A stretch of DNA of 64,000 bases from Diplonema papillatum (Eukaryota > Euglenozoa > Diplonemea > Diplonemida > Diplonemidae). The position numbers were made by a program, and so were the translations under genes. Under the pieces are notes generated by a model. It did no database searches, had not been told where the DNA came from, and worked only from the letters and a program-made list of their open reading frames with translations. Below, one piece after another: positions 2,842-56,731 of this stretch. The first letter of the stretch is position 1. Each line of letters begins with the position of its first letter. The stretch spans positions 1-64,000 of the forward strand of contig JAPJBO010000890.1 in assembly GCA_030068145.1 (NCBI GenBank), in the 5' to 3' direction.

Positions 2842-3943
2842 GAAAGAAGAAAAGCCAGGCACCGGGTTTCCCGCCGGCAGTTCTGCCGAGGCAGTCGCTC
2901 GGGGGTCTCGTGCTTTCGTGTTCGTTGAGCAGCGGTTGCCGAATCATGCCGCAGCACCGTCCTTTGTGTGTTTCTCCGGCTTCAAACGGCCTTCTTGATA
3001 ATGTGAAAAGGGGTTGACCAGGTGTGGCACCTGAGAGTGCATCTTCATAATGACGCCGCATAAGAGGTATATTTTGTTGACTTATACACCTGGCGCTGAG
3101 CCCATTGTACGTTCACTTAGAGATCTCGGAGTTCAAAGTATCCGGGGTTTTGCGGCGCCTTATCGAGCATTCTTTGAGCTTTGAAGGTTCTATGTTTAAG
3201 TCTCCGATTGACCATTGAGGCTGGATGTCGGGTAGTGCAAGGATGTAGACATTTGCACACTGTCTAACGTTGGCAAAAAAGTATCGCTGCAGCATCTCAG
3301 TTTCACTGTGGGAATCGGACATCAAACCCAGAGCAGGACAACACAGCCAGTAAACCAGGAGGAGAAGGGTGTGGGCTACTCGAGAACCAAAATACCCACC
3401 CTCCTTTCCCCCTGTGACCTCGACCTTTTAGCATTATTTGTGGATTAAAATTTTAGCGTTTACTGTAGTTTAGAGGTTCGGTGTTTTAGGGTCTCCGGTT
3501 GACCATTGAGGCTGTGAAGCGGGTGGTATGAGGGTAGTAGGTAGGTGCTTGTACACTTTAACTACGGCTAGCCATGTCTGCAAGTGTTGCGACCGACACC
3601 AAGAAGAAATTCGCTTTGAATTTAGTCTTGGGCCCCCCACGCAATTTTAGGCTGAGGTAAATACCCCAACGCTCCTGTCGCTCCCTCTCTCTTTCTCTTG
3701 CTCATTATTGTGATTCCCAAACGATCTGACCAGAAGCGCATTGTTCTCCATCGTTTCCCCCTTTTTATCCCTGCTCGTAGCTGCCGATGAAAGATTCCCG
3801 TGGCCGCAAAGTCGATCATGTGCCTATCTTTGCGGCATCTGCTCTTGGCGGCATTTTCTGGCACACAGATGTTTGACGGCCCTTGTGATGCAAAGGGTGA
3901 TATATATTTGTGTACGCAGTAACGCAGGTGTCCGAATTAGAGC
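2842..3943. other. intergenic, repeats only
   Basis: This stretch holds the second long copy of the CTCCGGTTGACC repeat (3455-3640) and a short copy near 3205. I see no coding signal. Confidence 0.6.
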
Positions 3944-28537: not shown

Positions 28538-28762
28538 AAGACTTGGCTATCGGGGAAGAGAATCCCCACGCGCTTCCCTGCTTGCCTTTGAAGAAGGCCG
28601 CGGAAGTCGACAAGCAGGCGCGATGAAAAAGGTGGGGCAGATGCGGGGGGAAGTCGCTGGTTTGAGGTTTCGAAAAACACTGCTTCAGAGATATGTTCCA
28701 CAGAAATTCTAGAGATTAAGTAAGTGAACTTACACTCTAGTAAATGAAGGGGGGGGCTTGTG

Positions 28763-31700
28763 TCAGATTCTGCGCATTTCGAGGCCCGTCGGCGTCGGCA
28801 CGGTCCGCTCGACTTCGTTACAGAACTGCTTGAAGCGCATGCCCTTGGGGTCCGGGGCATGGTTGCCCTTACGGGCGGCCATGAACCCGATGAAGAGGAG
28901 CAGCAGCGCGCCCGCGATGAGGAGCAGGATGATGGGCAGCGTGAAGAACCCGTCGTCGTCGTCCACCGGCGCGGCCTCCCCCGCCGCGCGGAGCGCCTCT
29001 TTTTCGCAGTCCATCGCCTGGCCCACGGACCGCACGCTAGCGTTGAACACGCACGTGCACACGAAGTCGTGCTGCACGTGCCGCGAGGCGTCGGAACACC
29101 TCGCCACCGCGGCGTCTCCACACGGCGGTGGATTCGCCTCGCACTCGTCGATGTCGCACGACGCGGGCGTGTTGGTCACAGCGTTCGAGCCGTCTCGGCA
29201 CGAACACGTAAATCGGTCGTGCACGTCGCCTTCCAGATCGTCTCGGTGGTCCTCGCAGACCTCTCCATACCCGCAGGGGACATCGGCGCACGGCCCCGTT
29301 CCTCCCTGCGGGGAAGACGGCACCGCCGGCTTGCCTGCGCAGGTCGCCACGTTCACTTTGAGGTAGCTCCGCGCGAAGGACCCGGCGCACGTCGTCCGGT
29401 CCCACGCGGCGGCGCCGCAGGCGCCAGGCGTCAGCACGGACGCGGCTTCGGCCGCATCGCTGTAGCTCCACTGGATCCAGCTGATGCGCTGCTCCGCGAA
29501 GTAGTCGAGGAACCCTTCGGCGACCCCGAGGAGGGGGTCGCCAGTGCCGTCGGCTTTGGTGGTGACCCACTGCGTGACGAAGAGCGGGATGACCGCCGCC
29601 GCCTGCTTGACTCTATTGAGGTAGAACCCGTGGCTCCCCGCGGCGAAGTGGAAGGCGTACATCACGTTCGCTGCGCCTACGATGGGATCCTTCGCCGGAT
29701 CGTGCACGCCCAGGCTCGAATCGGGCGTGCCGACGATCACGACGCCGTCGGCGCCTTCCCCGCGGATGACGGCAAGGATCCGCTCGGCGTACCCCTTCAC
29801 GGCGGCCCACGCGACTCCCGACGGCTGGCTGCAGATTTCGTACAACACGTGCCGCTCCGCTTTGTACGCCCGCGCAACCTCCTTGAAAAACTGCGGGGCC
29901 CCCGCGTACGCCGCGTGGTTCGGGTCCCCCGGCGTCTGCACGTGCCAGTCGACGACGACGTACACCCCGGCTTCCTTGCACCAGCCGACCACATCGTCAA
30001 GGATCGCCATCACCCCTTCAGGATCCGATGCGTACCCAGCGTTCCCCACGGAGACCGCAGCGCGGAAGACGTTGATTCCCCACGTTTTGACCAGGAACTG
30101 GATCGACTCCCTCGTGTGACAGCCCTCGTGCAGGTGCAGGACGTGGCTGCTCATGCCCATCAGCTGGACGGGATCGCCGCGCTCGTCGGTCAGCGCGGTG
30201 CCGGTGACCGACAGCCTCCCGTGGCAGGAGACAAAGTTCGTGTTGTCGATGTTTGGTACGCTCAAAGGGAGACCTTCGGGGAGTTTGCAGTTGTCGTCCG
30301 GGCCTCCTGGCGGAGTAACTGGTCCTGTTGGTGGAGTCCCTGGACCTGTCGGTGGAGTCCCTGGTTCTGTCGGTGGAGTCCCTGGACCTGTCGGTGGAGT
30401 CCCTGGACCAGTTGGTGGCGTGACTGGACCAGTTGGTGGAGTCACTGGACCTGTCGGTGGCGTGACCGGACCTGTCGGTGGAGTCCCTGGTTCTGTCGGT
30501 GGAGTCCCTGGTTCTGTCGGTGGAGTCCCTGGACCTGTCGGTGGAGTCCCTGGACCTGTCGGTGGAGTCCCTGGACCAGTTGGTGGCGTCACTGGACCTG
30601 TCGGTGGTGTTCCTGGTCCTGTCGGTGGAGTCCCTGGTTCTGTCGGTGGAGTCCCTGGACCTGTCGGTGGAGTCCCTGGACCTGTTGGTGGCGTTCCTGG
30701 ACCTGTCGGTGGAGTCCCTGGACCAGTTGGTGGCGTGACTGGACCAGTTGGTGGAGTCACTGGACCTGTCGGTGGAGTCACTGGACCTGTCGGTGGTGTT
30801 CCTGGTCCTGTCGGTGGAGTCCCTGGTTCTGTCGGTGGAGTCCCTGGTTCTGTCGGTGGCGTTCCCGGTCCTGTTGGTGGAGTCCCTGGTTCTGTCGGTG
30901 GAGTCCCTGGACCTGTTGGTGGCGTTCCTGGACCTGTCGGTGGAGTCCCTGGACCAGTTGGTGGCGTGACTGGACCTGTTGGTGGCGTCACTGGACCTGT
31001 CGGTGGCGTTCCCGGTCCTGTTGGTGGAGTCCCTGGTTCTGTCGGTGGAGTCCCTGGACCTGTTGGTGGCGTCCCTGGACCTGTCGGTGGAGTCCCTGGA
31101 CCTGTTGGTGGCGTTCCTGGACCTGTTGGTGGAGTCCCTGGACCTGTTGGTGGCGTCCCTGGACCTGTTGGTGGAGTCCCTGGACCTGTCGGTGGAGTCC
31201 CTGGACCTGTTGGTGGCGTTCCTGGACCTGTCGGTGGAGTCCCTGGACCAGTTGGTGGAGTCACTGGACCTGTCGGTGGAGTCCCTGGACCTGTTGGTGG
31301 AGTCCCTGGACCTGTTGGTGGCGTTCCTGGACCTGTCGGTGGAGTCCCTGGACCAGTTGGTGGCGTGACTGGACCAGTTGGTGGAGTCCCTGGACCTGTC
31401 GGTGGCGTTCCTGGTCCTGTCGGTGGAGTCCCTGGTCCTGTTGGTGGAGTCACTGGACCTGTCGGTGGCGTTCCTGGACCTGTCGGTGGAGTCCCTGGAC
31501 CTGTTGGTGGCGTGACTGGACCTGTTGGTGGAGTCCCTGGTCCGGTCGGTGGAGTCACTGGACCTGTCGGTGGCGTGGCTGGACCTGTCGGTGGAGTCAC
31601 TGGACCTGTCGGTGGAGTTCCTGGACCTGTTGGCGGCGTGACTGGACCTGTTGGCGGAGGAGTTGCTGGTGTTGGTGGGGAGGTCACAGGCAGAGGAGGG

Positions 31701-33580
31701 GGCGTAACAGGTGCGGGAGGCGGTGGAGGCGGTGTGACAGGAGGCGCATCGGTCGGCGGCGGCGTCGCGGGCCGCGGCGTCGGCGGGCCGTTGCAGGTCC
31801 AGACGTTCGTTTGCAGGTAGCTCCGGAGGAACGTCCCGGCGCACGTCGTGTTGTCCCACACCACGTCGCGGCATGCGTAGGCTTCGAGGACAGACGTGGT
31901 CTCCGGCTTGTCCGAGTAGCTCCAGTGCACCCAGCTGATGCTGAACTTCTTGAACAGGTCGAGGAAGGTCATCGCACTCTCCAAATACGGCCCGCCTTGG
32001 CCGTTGCTTTCCGACGTGCCCATCTCGGAGATGAAGATGGGCAACTTCCCCGCGTGCTTCTCAACCATCGGGAGCAGGTGCATGTGGGTCCCGGTGTAGA
32101 AGTGGAACGTGTACATCACGTTGCGGGGGTCCGCGACCGGGGCGAGCGCAGGCGCGTCCAGATCCCGGCTCCAGTCCGGTGTGCCAACGAGGATGACCGC
32201 GTCGGGGTTGATGGCGCGGATCGTCGCGATTGTGTCGTCCGCGTACGCCTTTATCTCCGACCACTGAATTTCGTTCGGCTCGTTGCAGATCTCGTAGATG
32301 ACATGGGTCTCGTTGATGTACAGCTCCGCCATCTCCTTGAAGAACTCCTTCGCGCCGGAGTACACCGGTGCAAACGGGTCACCGGGCTCGAGCACGTGCC
32401 AGTCGATGATGACGTAGATGCCCAGCTCCTTGCACCACTGCACGATGCTCTTCACCATGTCCTTCACCGCCGGGTTCGTCGCGTATCCCGCGTTCGCGAT
32501 GTGCATCGCCGCGCGGAACACGTTCACGCCCCACCTTTCGACGAGGTGGCGGATCGACGCTTTCTGGTAGCACGCGGGGAACCAGTGCAGTCCGTGGGTG
32601 CTGACGCCCATGAGCTGTACCGGGTCCCCGAACTCATCGACCAACTGATGGGCGGTCGACACACTCAGCTTCCCGTGGCACGCGACGAAGTCGGTGTTGT
32701 TCGCCGGAGCGACGTCAAACTCCAACCCATCGGGCAGCGGGCAGTGCGTGCCGCCCAGCGGGGCGACCTGCTGCACCAGGTCTACATCCGCCACCACCTC
32801 GTCCAGCGCACGAGCGGTGCGGGCGGAGGCGAAGTTTCTTCCGAGGTCCCACGTCAGCCCAGCGTCGAGTCTCTCGACCAGCTCCGCGGCGTGGATGACG
32901 CTTCCGACGAAATCCGTCAGCCGCACGCTCAGCGGGGCCCGCAGCGCATGCCCAACCGGAGGCCGGCACGCCCTCACCGCTTCGCCGCGCAGGGGGCAGT
33001 CTATCCATTCCGATGTACCGGCAGACCGCACTTCAGCCCTCGCCAGCTCCCCCCACCCTGCGACATCCCGCACGGAGAATGCGAACGGGTGCTGCGGAGA
33101 GGGCGGGCGGGATGTGATTCGCGCGTTTTTGGACTCGGCGCCGAAGGGGCAGGCGACCCTTCGGAATCGGACGGCGGCCATCTCGCAGACGCCGGCGGTG
33201 TCGTCGACCAGGGCGGCCATGGCCGCGGGGTTGATGGCGAATTGCGGCTCGCCGAACTCGCGCTGCCCGCGGGCGGCGTTGATTTGGACCACCACGGGGC
33301 CGGATCTGCAGGTGCAGTCCTTCGCGCCGCCCGTGGTGAACGGGCTCCCGCACTCTATCTCGTAGCACGCGCCGCAGGCCGCCGACCCGCGGAACAGGAC
33401 ATCGTCGGCGGCGGCGTACATTCCGTGCGGGAAGCTCTCTGTCACCTCATCGCCGTCCATCCCGCACCCCGCGCCGCTAGCCGCGGGATCGCCCGCGCGC
33501 CACGTCGCGATGCCTCCCTCCCACTCCCCCAGACCGGCGGAGGAAAAGCTCAGCGCCGCGACGGCGAAGAGCTGCAGCAT
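28763..33580 (-). CDS. membrane-anchored expansin-GH5 cellulase-pseudoGH5-EGF protein
   Basis: An intronless gene of 1605 residues. 1-18: signal peptide. 19-145: expansin double-psi barrel ([22 protein letters not shown]); the usual HFD motif is QFAI, so its Asp is missing. 163-250: expansin C-domain ([17 protein letters not shown], ending LTWDLGRNF). 280-596: GH5, closest in pattern to subfamily 2 endoglucanases, with acid/base Glu434 (ICNEP), nucleophile Glu519 (FISEMGTSE), His395, Tyr495 and Trp553. About 640-1091: TPPTGPx repeats. 1098-1415: second GH5 with SQP (Gln1252) for NEP, TQW (Gln1337) for the nucleophile and Ala for Tyr of HFY, so probably non-catalytic. 1430-1530: EGF-like, one DIDEC calcium type. 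1545-1569: membrane helix, then a 36-residue tail. Role inferred: loosening and cutting cellulose at the cell surface, the dead domain acting as a binder. Confidence 0.93.
30310..31663 (-). repeat. 21-bp coding minisatellite (TPPTGPx linker)
   Basis: About 64 units of 21 bp encode TPPTGP followed by G, V or E. Units differ by silent and conservative changes, and the frame is kept throughout. Blocks of several units recur in the same order, so the array grew by duplication of blocks. The repeat leaves several frames of both strands open. Confidence 0.96.
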
Positions 33581-33739
33581 AGCGGCGTCCCTTCCCTTCT
33601 TTTAGCGTTCAAGCTATCTTTTTTGGTTTCTCTTTTTTGTCCCCACGACTTTTTGTCTTGTTCCTTTTGCTCCTGATGCGGTTCGGGGTTCTTGTGTTTC
33701 TGACAGTCCCGTGTGGGTGCACAGATTGGTGTATTTCGA

Positions 33740-33820
33740 CATTTATTAGCGTTTATTGTGGTTTAGAGGTTCGGTGTTTTAGGCTCTCCGGTTGACCATT
33801 GAGGCTGGGAGTCGGGTAGG
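33740..33820 (+). repeat. CTCCGGTTGACC repeat upstream of the cellulase gene
   Basis: The copy reads from TTTATTGTGGTTTAGAGGTT to TTGACCATTGAGGCTG, 160-240 bp upstream of the GH5 start codon. It follows a CAGTCCCGTG block of the CCGACGATCCCG family. Confidence 0.8.
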
Positions 33821-35224: not shown

Positions 35225-35630
35225 CCTTTCAGGCCCTCACCCCCTCCCGCGGGATCGCCCGCGCGCCACGTAACTCGGAACATGCTTGACGTAAATGTGC
35301 TGTAGCCCACATAAAACACAGGTAAAGCTGGGTTCAGTGACGGGCGGAAGCGTTTCAACAAGACGACCTGTGTTACACACAGGCTCGGCATTCAGCATGT
35401 ATACATGCTTGTGTAGTATCTGATACGTGGTGTGTCCCGTCCTCAGGTGGCTCTACCCTAGAGCGTGATTTCACGGGATGGGGCGCGAGATCGCGGATAT
35501 CGCGTCTCAATCCCGTGATGCCTCCCTCCCACTCCCCCAGACCGGCTGAGGAAAAGCTCAGCGCCGCGACGGCGAAGAGCTGCGGCATAGCGGCGTCCCT
35601 TTCCTTCTTTTTCCGCGTTCAAACTAAACA
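35225..35630 (-). pseudogene. truncated 5' copy of the GH5 gene
   Basis: 35518-35630 repeats 33505-33615: upstream DNA, ATG (35586-35588) and codons for the signal peptide and first residues ([20 protein letters not shown]), then diverges. A further piece (GGGATCGCCCGCGCGCCACG, about 35250) matches the next part of the real gene, with about 245 bp inserted between them. It keeps the start codon but not the catalytic parts. Confidence 0.85.
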
Positions 35631-38996: not shown

Positions 38997-40199
38997 TCAC
39001 TTGCAGGTGAGTCCCGCGGGCGAGACGTCGGTCGCCGTCAGCTCCGCGTTGTCGCAGGTCCACCCGCCGGTGACCGGCTCCAGGTGCACGTCTTTGACGG
39101 TGATGTTTTTGCAGTCGTTCGGCGCGTCCCAGCAGACGAACGACCCGGGCTGCGGTGCGATCGTGGTGCCCGAAACCCGCGTGATGTTCTCGAACCGGAT
39201 GTTCCGGATGTCGGTCAGCGGGGTGTACGGCGACGCGCTGGAGTAGTTGGTGTTGATGCCCAAGACCAGCTGGGTGTCGCCGACGACGAGGTCCTTGTAC
39301 AGGATGTTCCTGATGTATCCGCCGCGGCTGGTGGACGTTTTGATCCGGCACGCGACCTTCAGCAAGCCGAACAGCGTGTTGTTCCACACGAGCACGTCGC
39401 TGACGCCGCCCGACACTTCCGACCCGATGGAGATCCCGTGGCCGTTGTAAAACACGTTGTGGCGGACCGTGACGTTCGTCACCGGCATCCCGACCGCCCG
39501 TCCGTACTCGTCGATCCCGGACTTGATCGCAATTGCGTCGTCCCCGCAGGTGACGTTGTTGTGCTCGATCAGCACGTTCGCGCTGCTGTCGGGGTCGATC
39601 CCGTCCGTGTTGGAAGAGCTCTCCGGGTTGTTGATCGTGATGTGGTGGATGTGCACGTCTCTGCAGTACACCGGGTGGACGGTCCACGACGGCGAGTTCC
39701 GGAGCGTAACCCCCGCGATTTCGACTCCAGTCACGTTGTTGATCTCCACCAGCTTCGGCCGGCCGTTCTTAAGCTCCTGCTTCTTGAGCAGATCCCACCA
39801 GTACAGGCCGTTTCCGTCGATGACGCCGCTGCCGTTGATCCGCACGTTCGCCGTGTCGACGGCGTGGACCAACGCCTGGTATCTGTTCGGCTCGCCGTTG
39901 TCGCCCCCCGTCCCGTAACTGGGCAGCGCGGGCAGTACCGGGTAGCCGTTGACGTCCATCAACCCGAAGATCGTGCCTTCGACGGTGAGCGTGGAGCCCC
40001 CGCTGAGGTTGAACGCGCCCGTCAGGAAGGACCCTGCGGGCACCAGAAGCACCGCGTCCTCCTTCGGCACGCGGCCCGCGCACGCGCGGAAGGCGTTCGT
40101 GTTGTCGGTCGTCCCGTCGCCCACCGCGCCGCAGGACACGACGCTCAAGCTCGCCGCCGCTTCCGCTGCCAGCAGCACGACGGCGAAGGCCCGCAGCAT
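38997..40199 (-). CDS. secreted GH28 polygalacturonase
   Basis: An intronless gene of 400 residues. The first 17 residues are a signal peptide (MLRAFAVVLLAAEAAAS). Then VSCGAVGDGTTDNTNAF, the usual start of the pectate-lyase-fold GH28 domain. All four family signatures are present: NTD (197-199), GDD (219-221), GHG (253-255) and RIK (285-287), giving the three catalytic aspartates 199, 220 and 221. DGNGLYWWD (128-136) is the subsite motif. Many N-x-S/T sites suggest glycosylation. The enzyme hydrolyses alpha-1,4-galacturonan in pectin outside the cell; exo or endo action cannot be decided. It lies 5.4 kb from the cellulase gene on the same strand, with a truncated 5' copy upstream. Confidence 0.95.
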   Translation of the reverse strand: MLRAFAVVLLAAEAAASLSVVSCGAVGDGTTDNTNAFRACAGRVPKEDAVLLVPAGSFLTGAFNLSGGSTLTVEGTIFGLMDVNGYPVLPALPSYGTGGDNGEPNRYQALVHAVDTANVRINGSGVIDGNGLYWWDLLKKQELKNGRPKLVEINNVTGVEIAGVTLRNSPSWTVHPVYCRDVHIHHITINNPESSSNTDGIDPDSSANVLIEHNNVTCGDDAIAIKSGIDEYGRAVGMPVTNVTVRHNVFYNGHGISIGSEVSGGVSDVLVWNNTLFGLLKVACRIKTSTSRGGYIRNILYKDLVVGDTQLVLGINTNYSSASPYTPLTDIRNIRFENITRVSGTTIAPQPGSFVCWDAPNDCKNITVKDVHLEPVTGGWTCDNAELTATDVSPAGLTCK

Positions 40200-54856: not shown

Positions 54857-54953
54857 TCACAGTTTCACTGAGGGAGTTGATGCACCACGAAAGTCGATTA
54901 GAGAACTCTACACAGCCTTCAGGGTGTGGTTGGTTCAAAGAAACAGTCAAGTT
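54857..54953 (+). repeat. split direct repeat A1
   Basis: 97 bp starting TCACAGTTTCACTGAGGG; identical to A2 (56872-56968). Confidence 0.95.
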
Positions 54954-56731
54954 ACGACGAAGCACGAGGAGGAGGGAGGTCCCGGGACGCTTTCGAGGAC
55001 CACACTCCGGTACGCCGGGGGCGACGTGGACCTTGCCAGGGCACTCGAGACCGGCAAGGTGACGAGGCACTTGTGACGGGATACCTCCGCAGTGGTCATT
55101 TCCACTCCGTCACCCGACGAGGCGGTTCGACGCGTCTGCCGCGTAGCAAGGAGGAGCGTGCCTCGCCGTTGCACGTCGCGCCGATCAAGCCGATGTCGGT
55201 CGACAAGCTGCGCGCGCGGATGAACGAAGCGGCTCTCCGCCGCTTTGACGATACGTGGCAAACAACGTTCTTCCCTCGTGTTGAAACCGAGACGGTAATC
55301 GGTTCACCCTCAACCCTTCGTCCTGAACATGCGTCTTTGCTTGCCGACAACGGGATTGCCCGCAGTTCGACCGGTCCCGGCCCGTTCGCTTCGGTTCCTT
55401 TTACCGTCTTGGAAGAGAAGGACGGGGCGCTGCGACAGCGCTTCATATTGTGGACAGTGGACGGCAACCGGGCCGCTCACGAGCGGGGGTACGAGGCGCA
55501 TGTGCCTCTCGGACACGTTTCGGCGTATCTGGGGGCAAGCCGTGAAGAGTGTGGTTCGACCCGCGATTTCAAGACCGGCTTTTACGCGATCGAGATTCCA
55601 CCGGAGTCGCGTCACCTCTTCCGCTTCGCTGATTCCGGTGGCGGTTGGTGGGAACTTCTGCGGCTTCCCATGGGACATTCGTGTGCACCTGAGATAATGC
55701 ACACGCTGGCAGCCGTGGCGGGCGGGCACGCGGATTACGTGCTACCGCAGTTTGCCGAGCGGGATGTCACCGTCGATATATGGGTCGACAACATCCGATA
55801 TGCCGGGAAAAGGTCGGCGGTGCAGCTCGCGACCCGAAGGCTGGACCAGACCGCCGCTGATTGCGATCTGACGTGGAAGCCCTCCGACTCGCAGACGGCG
55901 GCCACGCGGTATGAGTTCATCGGGGTCGATTGGGACCATGTTGCTCACCGTGTTGCAGTCTCGCGGAAGCTACGCCGGAAGCTTATGGAAGCGCGTTACA
56001 CGCTGAAGTCGTCGCCAACAATGCGGGCCTCCGAGCTCGAAACTCTTGGTGGTCGTTTGCTGCATGCCTCTGCAGTCGCTGGAATCTTTCCAGGCTCTTT
56101 TTGGTTTGCGCTTAAATTCTTTCGGCGCGTTACGAATTCGTTGAACCGGGGTGCACGACTCCCCTCTGATACGGTGGAGGTGTCTCCCTGTGTGCGATTG
56201 TCCCTTCAAGAGTGGATTGACTCGGTGTTAAAGCCGAGGGCCATCCCCGTTCTGCAACAGTCCCCGCGCATCACGGCCTTCGTGGACGCGAGCAAGAAAG
56301 GCTGGGGCGGTGTCCTTGTGGATTCGCGGACGATGGAAGTGACCGTCTTAGGAGGGTCGTGGAATGCTGCGGAGAGCTCGCTGCATATCAACGAGCTGGA
56401 GGCCATTGCATTTAACCTGGTTATCCTTGCTCTTCCAGTCTCAATCAAAGGGGGAAGAGTGGATGTCGTAGTTGATAATACCACGGTGAAAGGGGTTGCC
56501 CGAAAGGGTGCCTGTTTGAAGAGTGCCGTGTTGAACAACGCGGTAGTCAGAGGATTGGAACGCGTGCGTTCCTTAAACTGTGCTCTTTCCGTGCGATGGG
56601 TCAGGAGTGAAGGCAACCCTGCGGACTTGCCATCACGCGTACCGCTGACCATGATTGGCGCTGATGCGCTCGATTCAATTGTACTTGCGGTGAGGCAGTT
56701 TCTCACTGGCGTTGTGGTGGATGGAAGGTGA
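54902..56731 (+). CDS. reverse transcriptase-RNase H of the YR element
   Basis: The frame is open from 54902 (inside A1); the first ATG is 55193, inside the conserved N-terminal region, so the natural protein was probably longer and begins in deleted sequence. RT motif A is TRDFKTGFYAIEI (Asp at 55565), motif B LPMGHSCAPEIMHTL, motif C WVDNIRYAG (55781-55807): the second Asp of the usual DD is Asn. RNase H follows with all four acidic positions: FVDASKKGWGG, HINELEA, VVDNTTV and GNPADLPSR. These are the DIRS-type RT/RH signatures. The stop TGA (56729-56731) lies in B1. No frameshift is seen. Confidence 0.88.
   Translation, partial: RTLHSLQGVVGSKKQSSYDEARGGGRSRDAFEDHTPVRRGRRGPCQGTRDRQGDEALVTGYLRSGHFHSVTRRGGSTRLPRSKEERASPLHVAPIKPMSVDKLRARMNEAALRRFDDTWQTTFFPRVETETVIGSPSTLRPEHASLLADNGIARSSTGPGPFASVPFTVLEEKDGALRQRFILWTVDGNRAAHERGYEAHVPLGHVSAYLGASREECGSTRDFKTGFYAIEIPPESRHLFRFADSGGGWWELLRLPMGHSCAPEIMHTLAAVAGGHADYVLPQFAERDVTVDIWVDNIRYAGKRSAVQLATRRLDQTAADCDLTWKPSDSQTAATRYEFIGVDWDHVAHRVAVSRKLRRKLMEARYTLKSSPTMRASELETLGGRLLHASAVAGIFPGSFWFALKFFRRVTNSLNRGARLPSDTVEVSPCVRLSLQEWIDSVLKPRAIPVLQQSPRITAFVDASKKGWGGVLVDSRTMEVTVLGGSWNAAESSLHINELEAIAFNLVILALPVSIKGGRVDVVVDNTTVKGVARKGACLKSAVLNNAVVRGLERVRSLNCALSVRWVRSEGNPADLPSRVPLTMIGADALDSIVLAVRQFLTGVVVDGR

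Follow-up and report, generated by a model that had tools for sequence, protein, structure and literature searches.

By what means might a marine flagellate deal with wall polymers at its cell surface? A concrete candidate protein is encoded in a 64,000-nucleotide stretch of the diplonemid Diplonema papillatum (P. papillatum below; assembly GCA_030068145.1, contig JAPJBO010000890.1, positions 1 to 64,000), called the window hereafter. The gene is a minus-strand open reading frame (ORF) at window positions 28763-33580, with 1605 codons in a single frame and a sole, terminal stop. From N- to C-terminus, its product has a hydrophobic leader, an expansin-like module with domains D1 and D2, a first GH5 domain (GH5-1), a stalk rich in proline, threonine and glycine, a second GH5 fold (GH5-2), a pair of EGF-like modules, a membrane helix and a tail. 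An earlier note, made by reading the letters, described it as a surface-anchored fusion that loosens and cuts cellulose, perhaps during feeding. Our own reading, to which we give a probability of roughly 0.6 on sequence grounds, is that the protein would be a type-I plasma-membrane ectoenzyme for feeding, with two other modules gripping or spacing.

A single reading frame

The architecture that the earlier note had assigned to one ORF does lie in one frame, along which Pfam and phmmer matches were found. A Pfam scan recognised GH5 at two places in the chain (full-protein E 1.5e-92). Such a frame is hardly expected by chance: when 200 first-order Markov sequences were drawn with the length and make-up of the ORF's 1104 non-repeat codons, none was open, the average number of stops being 20.8 and the longest open run 436 codons. 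The G+C content at third codon positions (GC3) is 0.84-0.90 in the domain regions. The opposite strand is also open (window 28760-33676, plus strand, 1638 codons), and this frame is probably a mirror ORF of GC3-rich coding DNA, since GC3 is high on the minus-strand gene. Every domain match found lies on the minus strand, although this plus-strand frame was not itself scanned.

Two GH5 folds, one with an intact site

GH5-1 (residues 280-596; window 31793-32743, minus strand, as for all parts of the gene) matches 6gjf (E 5e-79), 3pzt (E 2.5e-76) and 1egz (E 3.5e-37; labelled family GH 5-2 in the structure listing) by phmmer, and is of subfamily-2 type by its match to these characterised GH5_2 enzymes. 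It keeps all eight of the residues taken to form the GH5 catalytic site, including both glutamates (Glu434 and Glu519). With its site intact and its strong GH5_2 matches, it is very likely an active endo-beta-1,4-glucanase, in line with the intact GH5 cellulase of the earlier note.

GH5-2 (residues 1098-1415; window 29336-30289) is 50% identical to GH5-1 and matches 2ckr (E 1.3e-66), which is T. fusca Cel5A with its nucleophile changed to Gln (E355Q), crystallised in a complex. The GH5 fold and sequence are there, but the catalytic pair is not. Four of the eight site residues are retained (Arg, both His and Trp), and in the others Asn has become Ser, the acid/base Glu is Gln1252, Tyr is Ala and the nucleophile Glu is Gln1337; at the catalytic pair the codons are CAG, where GH5-1 has GAG. 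Outside the site we compared GH5-2 with paralogues from the genome (271,365,524 bases in 2910 contigs, where C-numbers denote other loci). At 123 other positions four active paralogues all agree, and GH5-2 keeps 92 of these; leave-one-out controls on the paralogues gave 123/154 for GH5-1, 123/149 for C307, 123/130 for C109_319 and 123/124 for C406, the last two being close relatives of each other. Judged from these alignments, GH5-2 is slightly less conserved outside the site than an isolated active paralogue, and far less inside it; its losses are concentrated in the catalytic site. No stop or frameshift interrupts its 318 codons. Because both catalytic glutamates are lost, yet 92 of the 123 other positions are kept, GH5-2 looks like a maintained pseudoenzyme. 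A structure model of these residues, as the earlier note had suggested making, was built from a two-row alignment (mean predicted local distance difference test score, pLDDT, 62.9) and resembles GH5_2 structures, with template-modelling (TM) scores of 0.74-0.76 by query length over the first 12 chains. Match, substitutions and model together agree with the pseudo-GH5 described there.

An expansin-like module without the key aspartates

The module at residues 19-250 (window 32831-33526) stays below the Pfam cut-offs, both in the whole protein (DPBB_1, E 0.058) and in its N-terminal 269 residues (DPBB_1, E 0.0045; Expansin_C, E 0.15). Its two-domain homology was found by phmmer, which aligned maize beta-expansin 1a (2hcz) across D1 and D2 (residues 18-235, E 2.9e-12) and matched Phl p 1 (E 4e-10), these being its closest solved relatives. 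Both expansin domains named in the earlier note are thus recovered. A search of the genome revealed a second full-length copy (C76), a stand-alone protein of 308 residues that is 35% identical over D1 and D2 and has a hydrophobic C-terminus resembling a glycosylphosphatidylinositol (GPI) signal. Each full-length copy has ten cysteines, nine of which are aligned.

In the HFD motif the Asp is replaced by Ala115 in the window protein and by Gln in C76; the TD-motif Asp lines up with Ala102 in the former and with Thr in the latter. In a bacterial expansin the changes D82A and D82N abolish activity (PMC5072189, as far as its accessible text goes). The Asp is not universal in expansin-like proteins, as one natural bacterial expansin, from Stigmatella, has Leu at this position (same source) and 7xc8 reads DFV at the HFD site in the phmmer alignment. 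Because neither of the two full-length copies found retains the HFD Asp, whose replacement inactivates a bacterial expansin, we call the module expansin-like and do not assume wall loosening. Of the earlier claim that the protein "loosens and cuts cellulose", these residues support the cutting, through the intact site of GH5-1, and not the loosening.

Other traces of expansin in the genome are a broken fragment at C223 and a short echo about 2 kb upstream of the gene. The latter, a 113-bp copy at window 35514-35626 (minus strand), is 93% identical to the 5' end of the gene (33506-33616) and spans the end of the leader, the ATG, the signal peptide and the start of the expansin part before giving way to unrelated sequence; it is a truncated duplicate. 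Pattern searches for relatives of the expansin pair gave 71 matches on prokaryote contigs and 19 on viral contigs, none of them confirmed, and were too narrow to show absence. The same holds for the GH5 pair (155 matches on prokaryote contigs, 0 confirmed), because bacterial GH5_2 enzymes clearly match GH5-1 by phmmer.

Stalk, membrane anchor and origin

The two GH5 folds are separated by a linker of 501 residues (597-1097; window 30290-31792), in which the heptad TPPT[GE]P. occurs 63 times between residues 648 and 1088. Tandem Repeats Finder (TRF) describes it as a repeat of period 21 with 64.2 copies and 0% indels, so the reading frame is kept through the stalk, and the long linker of the earlier note is real.

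The single membrane helix was likewise recovered. With a 19-residue hydropathy window and a threshold of 1.6, the only stretch above the threshold is at residues 1550-1568 (mean 2.98; window 28877-28933). The leader, with the start codon and a putative signal peptide at residues 1-18 (window 33527-33580; cleavage site estimated), fails this threshold; its best hydrophobic 11-mer has a mean of 2.03. By its position after the helix, the 37-residue end of the chain (residues 1569-1605; window 28766-28876) is a predicted cytoplasmic tail. No Pfam domain was found in it, and the helix and tail used alone as a query returned themselves and one match at E 0.23, which gives no support to a common cytoplasmic sorting tail.

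Residues 1431-1526 (window 29003-29290) are assigned as two EGF-like modules by matches to homologous modules in the genome. The Pfam EGF family gave no match in the C-terminal part of the protein, and two homologous modules of this genome score 20.3 bits (E 6.8e-4) and 16.2 bits (E 0.013) against PF00008, below the cut-off of 21.5. The C-terminal part matches multi-EGF ORFs across the genome (at least 200 matches, with 150 of 388 candidates scored), and the EGF-like pair, helix and cytoplasmic part align with the end of one such open frame of 2685 codons, at C15 (54 of 180 columns identical, E 5e-12 in a single comparison). EGF-like modules followed by a membrane anchor, as first described, are what this alignment and the helix point to. 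Because each part also exists apart in the genome, the gene looks assembled from three sources: an expansin, a GH5_2 enzyme and a multi-EGF membrane protein. Eleven further ORFs with GH5 or expansin were checked for a hydrophobic C-terminus: the best 17-mer within the final 60 residues is strongly hydrophobic in two, the C103 GH5 (2.48) and the C76 expansin (2.16), and reaches at most 1.27 in the other nine.

Other GH5 proteins in the genome

Among 35 GH5 matches in the genome, nine plus five domains were aligned for the catalytic site and four matches were read by eye (C38, one C620 copy, C103 and C396). The 17 outside the site comparison are 12 on C33 copies, the second C620 copy and the fragments C578, C583, C536:100179 and C153. 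Three proteins carry folds that have lost site residues. An 852-residue protein at C251 (L030) has a strongly degenerate GH5, with 1/8 site residues and 66/123 other positions, a long Pro/Thr repeat linker and a Cys-rich C-terminus. A 1378-residue ORF at C109 (L013) has a GH5 with 5/8 site residues and Ala as nucleophile, several Cys-rich stretches and a GH6 domain reading VEPG for IEPD, so that it lacks the acid of that motif. A 1877-residue ORF at C33 (L018) has four tandem GH5 repeats followed by a laminin-G-like domain: the first lacks both glutamates, the second lacks the acid/base, the third has Asn changed to Ser with both glutamates kept, and the fourth is intact. Further similar arrays lie elsewhere on C33. 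The genome thus contains repeated cases of dead or damaged cellulase folds, which fits a kept role without naming it. Support for a single origin of the pseudo-GH5s is 50/44. In another carbohydrate-enzyme family, GH115, the genome gives 19 matches, 14 of them spanning almost the full profile; this is near, though not identical to, the 13 members (12 in the running text) published for D. papillatum, a family described as a gain of that species only (PMC10161547).

One generalization was discarded and another found no support. Dead GH5 folds are not always paired with a live enzyme, as no other enzyme domain was seen in the C251 protein and the GH6 of C109 reads VEPG. That the C-terminal Cys-rich modules of the paralogues are CBM1 is unsupported, as they gave no CBM1 match.

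Neighbouring sequences

Upstream of the gene and on the same strand, window 38997-40199 encodes a GH28 polygalacturonase ORF of 400 residues (E 4.3e-54) with a hydrophobic N-terminus. A dispersed repeat of 72-74 bp (92-93% identical) occurs upstream of the gene at window 33746-33819, and at 1746-1819 and 3453-3524. On the plus strand, the ORF at 54926-56731 is perhaps a retroelement, as it weakly resembles the RNase H of reverse transcriptases (E 7e-4, which does not reach the cut-off).

Proposed function and alternatives

By sequence, the stalk of some 500 residues has the expansin-like module and the active-looking GH5_2 domain as a head at its distal end, and the GH5_2 fold that lacks the catalytic pair, the EGF-like pair and the membrane helix at its proximal end. 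An extended stalk rises about 0.31 nm per residue, so in the ectoenzyme reading its 501 residues would keep the head at a distance from the membrane of about 150 nm, as an upper bound. There, outside the cell, GH5-1 would cut beta-1,4-glucan in the walls of algae or plants, while the expansin-like module and GH5-2 would grip the wall or serve as spacers, and not as a loosening agent or a second cellulase. Surface digestion, perhaps in feeding, had been suggested earlier, and it agrees with the membrane proteomics of this species (PMC12697944, as far as seen in its text). Also in favour of our reading are the intact site of GH5-1, the Gln pair in an otherwise largely kept GH5-2, the crystallised E355Q form of Cel5A, the cellulose-binding membrane GH5 of C. 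thermocellum that lacks its acid/base (PMC3526467), the missing Asp in both full-length expansin copies with their mostly aligned cysteines, and the GH28 pectinase ORF upstream. Three observations weigh against our reading. GH5-2 has lost two Trp (HGLHW to HVLHL, PDWS to PDSS) that are kept in the active paralogues and in the three bacterial relatives aligned, so that glucan binding through its old cleft is not a safe assumption. D2 lacks the Trp pair of beta-expansins at the aligned positions. Finally, the prediction for residues 19-250, also suggested in the earlier note, was run, but the quality of the model (mean pLDDT 38.3) was not sufficient for it to be used.

Could the dead fold report rather than grip? 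In a cellulose sensor comparable to the clostridial, RsgI-type Rsi24C, GH5-2 would bind wall glucan, the helix and the 37-residue tail would report it, and GH5-1 would supply chain ends. A membrane-borne dead GH5 that binds crystalline cellulose is a precedent (PMC3526467, in the part available), and the alignment of EGF-like pair, helix and tail with the C15 protein is in line with it, but the tail has no known domain, its search with the helix returned little beyond itself, and two cleft Trp are gone; we regard a sensor as unlikely. The same can be said of a head in which the expansin part loosens cellulose while GH5-1 cuts. Homology spanning D1 and D2, and the natural proteins with Leu or DFV at the site, speak for it, whereas the Ala and Gln at the HFD Asp and the inactivating effect of D82A and D82N (PMC5072189, as above) argue otherwise.

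Two further explanations, each of which we hold to be very improbable, would deny the chain or its modules a meaning. The ORF might join separate genes, through assembly or read-through of non-coding DNA, for which one could invoke the 1.35-kb array of 21-base repeats between the GH5 domains and the 113-bp echo of the gene start upstream. Yet one frame crosses all the domains, the heptads have no indels and GC3 is high in each domain region. Alternatively, GH5-2 and the expansin part might be functionless products of neutral decay, as the loss of four site residues and two Trp and the further decay of the C251 relative (1/8 and 66/123) would allow; but the losses of GH5-2 are concentrated in the catalytic site, its 318 codons are free of stops and frameshifts, and the window copy and its C76 paralogue have both lost the expansin Asp.

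A dead GH5 and an Asp-less expansin adjoin a live cellulase, and C251 and C109 carry dead GH5 folds as well, which is why we tentatively raise the idea, itself rather doubtful, that diplonemids turn dead wall enzymes into proteins that recognise walls at the cell surface. The window protein could then act as a receptor for cellulose as well as cutting it, as a eukaryotic equivalent of the bacterial GH5 biosensors. The protein also places an expansin-like module in Euglenozoa. With dead enzyme folds kept beside a live one, the role of pseudoenzyme modules could be addressed in one chain, in a species amenable to tagging and gene deletion (PMC12697944, in the part seen).

Comparison with known systems

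Some of this is already known: surface carbohydrate enzymes in this species and, in bacteria, both dead GH5 modules and fusions of GH5 with expansin. The earlier note knew of no protein with this whole order ending in a membrane anchor. We found no report of the order expansin-GH5-stalk-pseudoGH5-EGF-helix, or of an expansin in Euglenozoa, among the open-licence papers that our searches listed; GH5-expansin fusions, including inactive GH5 joined to expansin, were known from Xanthomonas, so that the claim of novelty holds for the exact order. What is new is this order, an expansin in Euglenozoa, the loss of the expansin Asp and the two Trp gone from GH5-2.

In P. papillatum, carbohydrate enzymes with predicted C-terminal anchors were located to the cell membrane by proteomics. 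These membrane enzymes resemble the window protein as predicted here: they begin with a signal peptide, which is putative in the latter, have their catalytic domains outside the cell, may repeat enzyme domains along the chain and end in a helix or GPI anchor. The published set is described as pectinases along with other glycosyl hydrolases, and the word "expansin" is absent from the main text (all from the accessible part of PMC12697944).

Like plant beta-expansins (2hcz, 1n10) and 7xc8, the window protein has two-domain homology and most of the D1 Cys positions; in contrast to them, its key Asp and D2 Trp positions are changed, and its D2 has two Cys where 2hcz has none. Bacterial GH5 and expansin genes were united at least three times, adjacent or fused (PMC7729394), and added domains in bacterial fusions are mainly N-terminal to the expansin (PMC11040781). 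The fusions of Xanthomonas and of Clavibacter CelA (PMC5072189, PMC7729394, PMC11040781) share with the window protein a GH5 and an expansin in one ORF. The window protein differs in having the expansin first and a subfamily-2-like GH5, and in its long stalk and membrane helix, neither of which is mentioned for the bacterial fusions in the accessible portions of these papers.

Dead GH5 folds inside modular proteins also have bacterial parallels (PMC3526467, in the part available). Inactive GH5 joined to expansin is found in a Xanthomonas subgroup and derives from GH5_1, and in the Clostridium thermocellum membrane protein Rsi24C, a biosensor, a GH5 without its acid/base binds crystalline cellulose. 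Unlike both, the window chain also holds a live GH5, and its dead one is GH5_2-like, with both glutamates changed to Gln.

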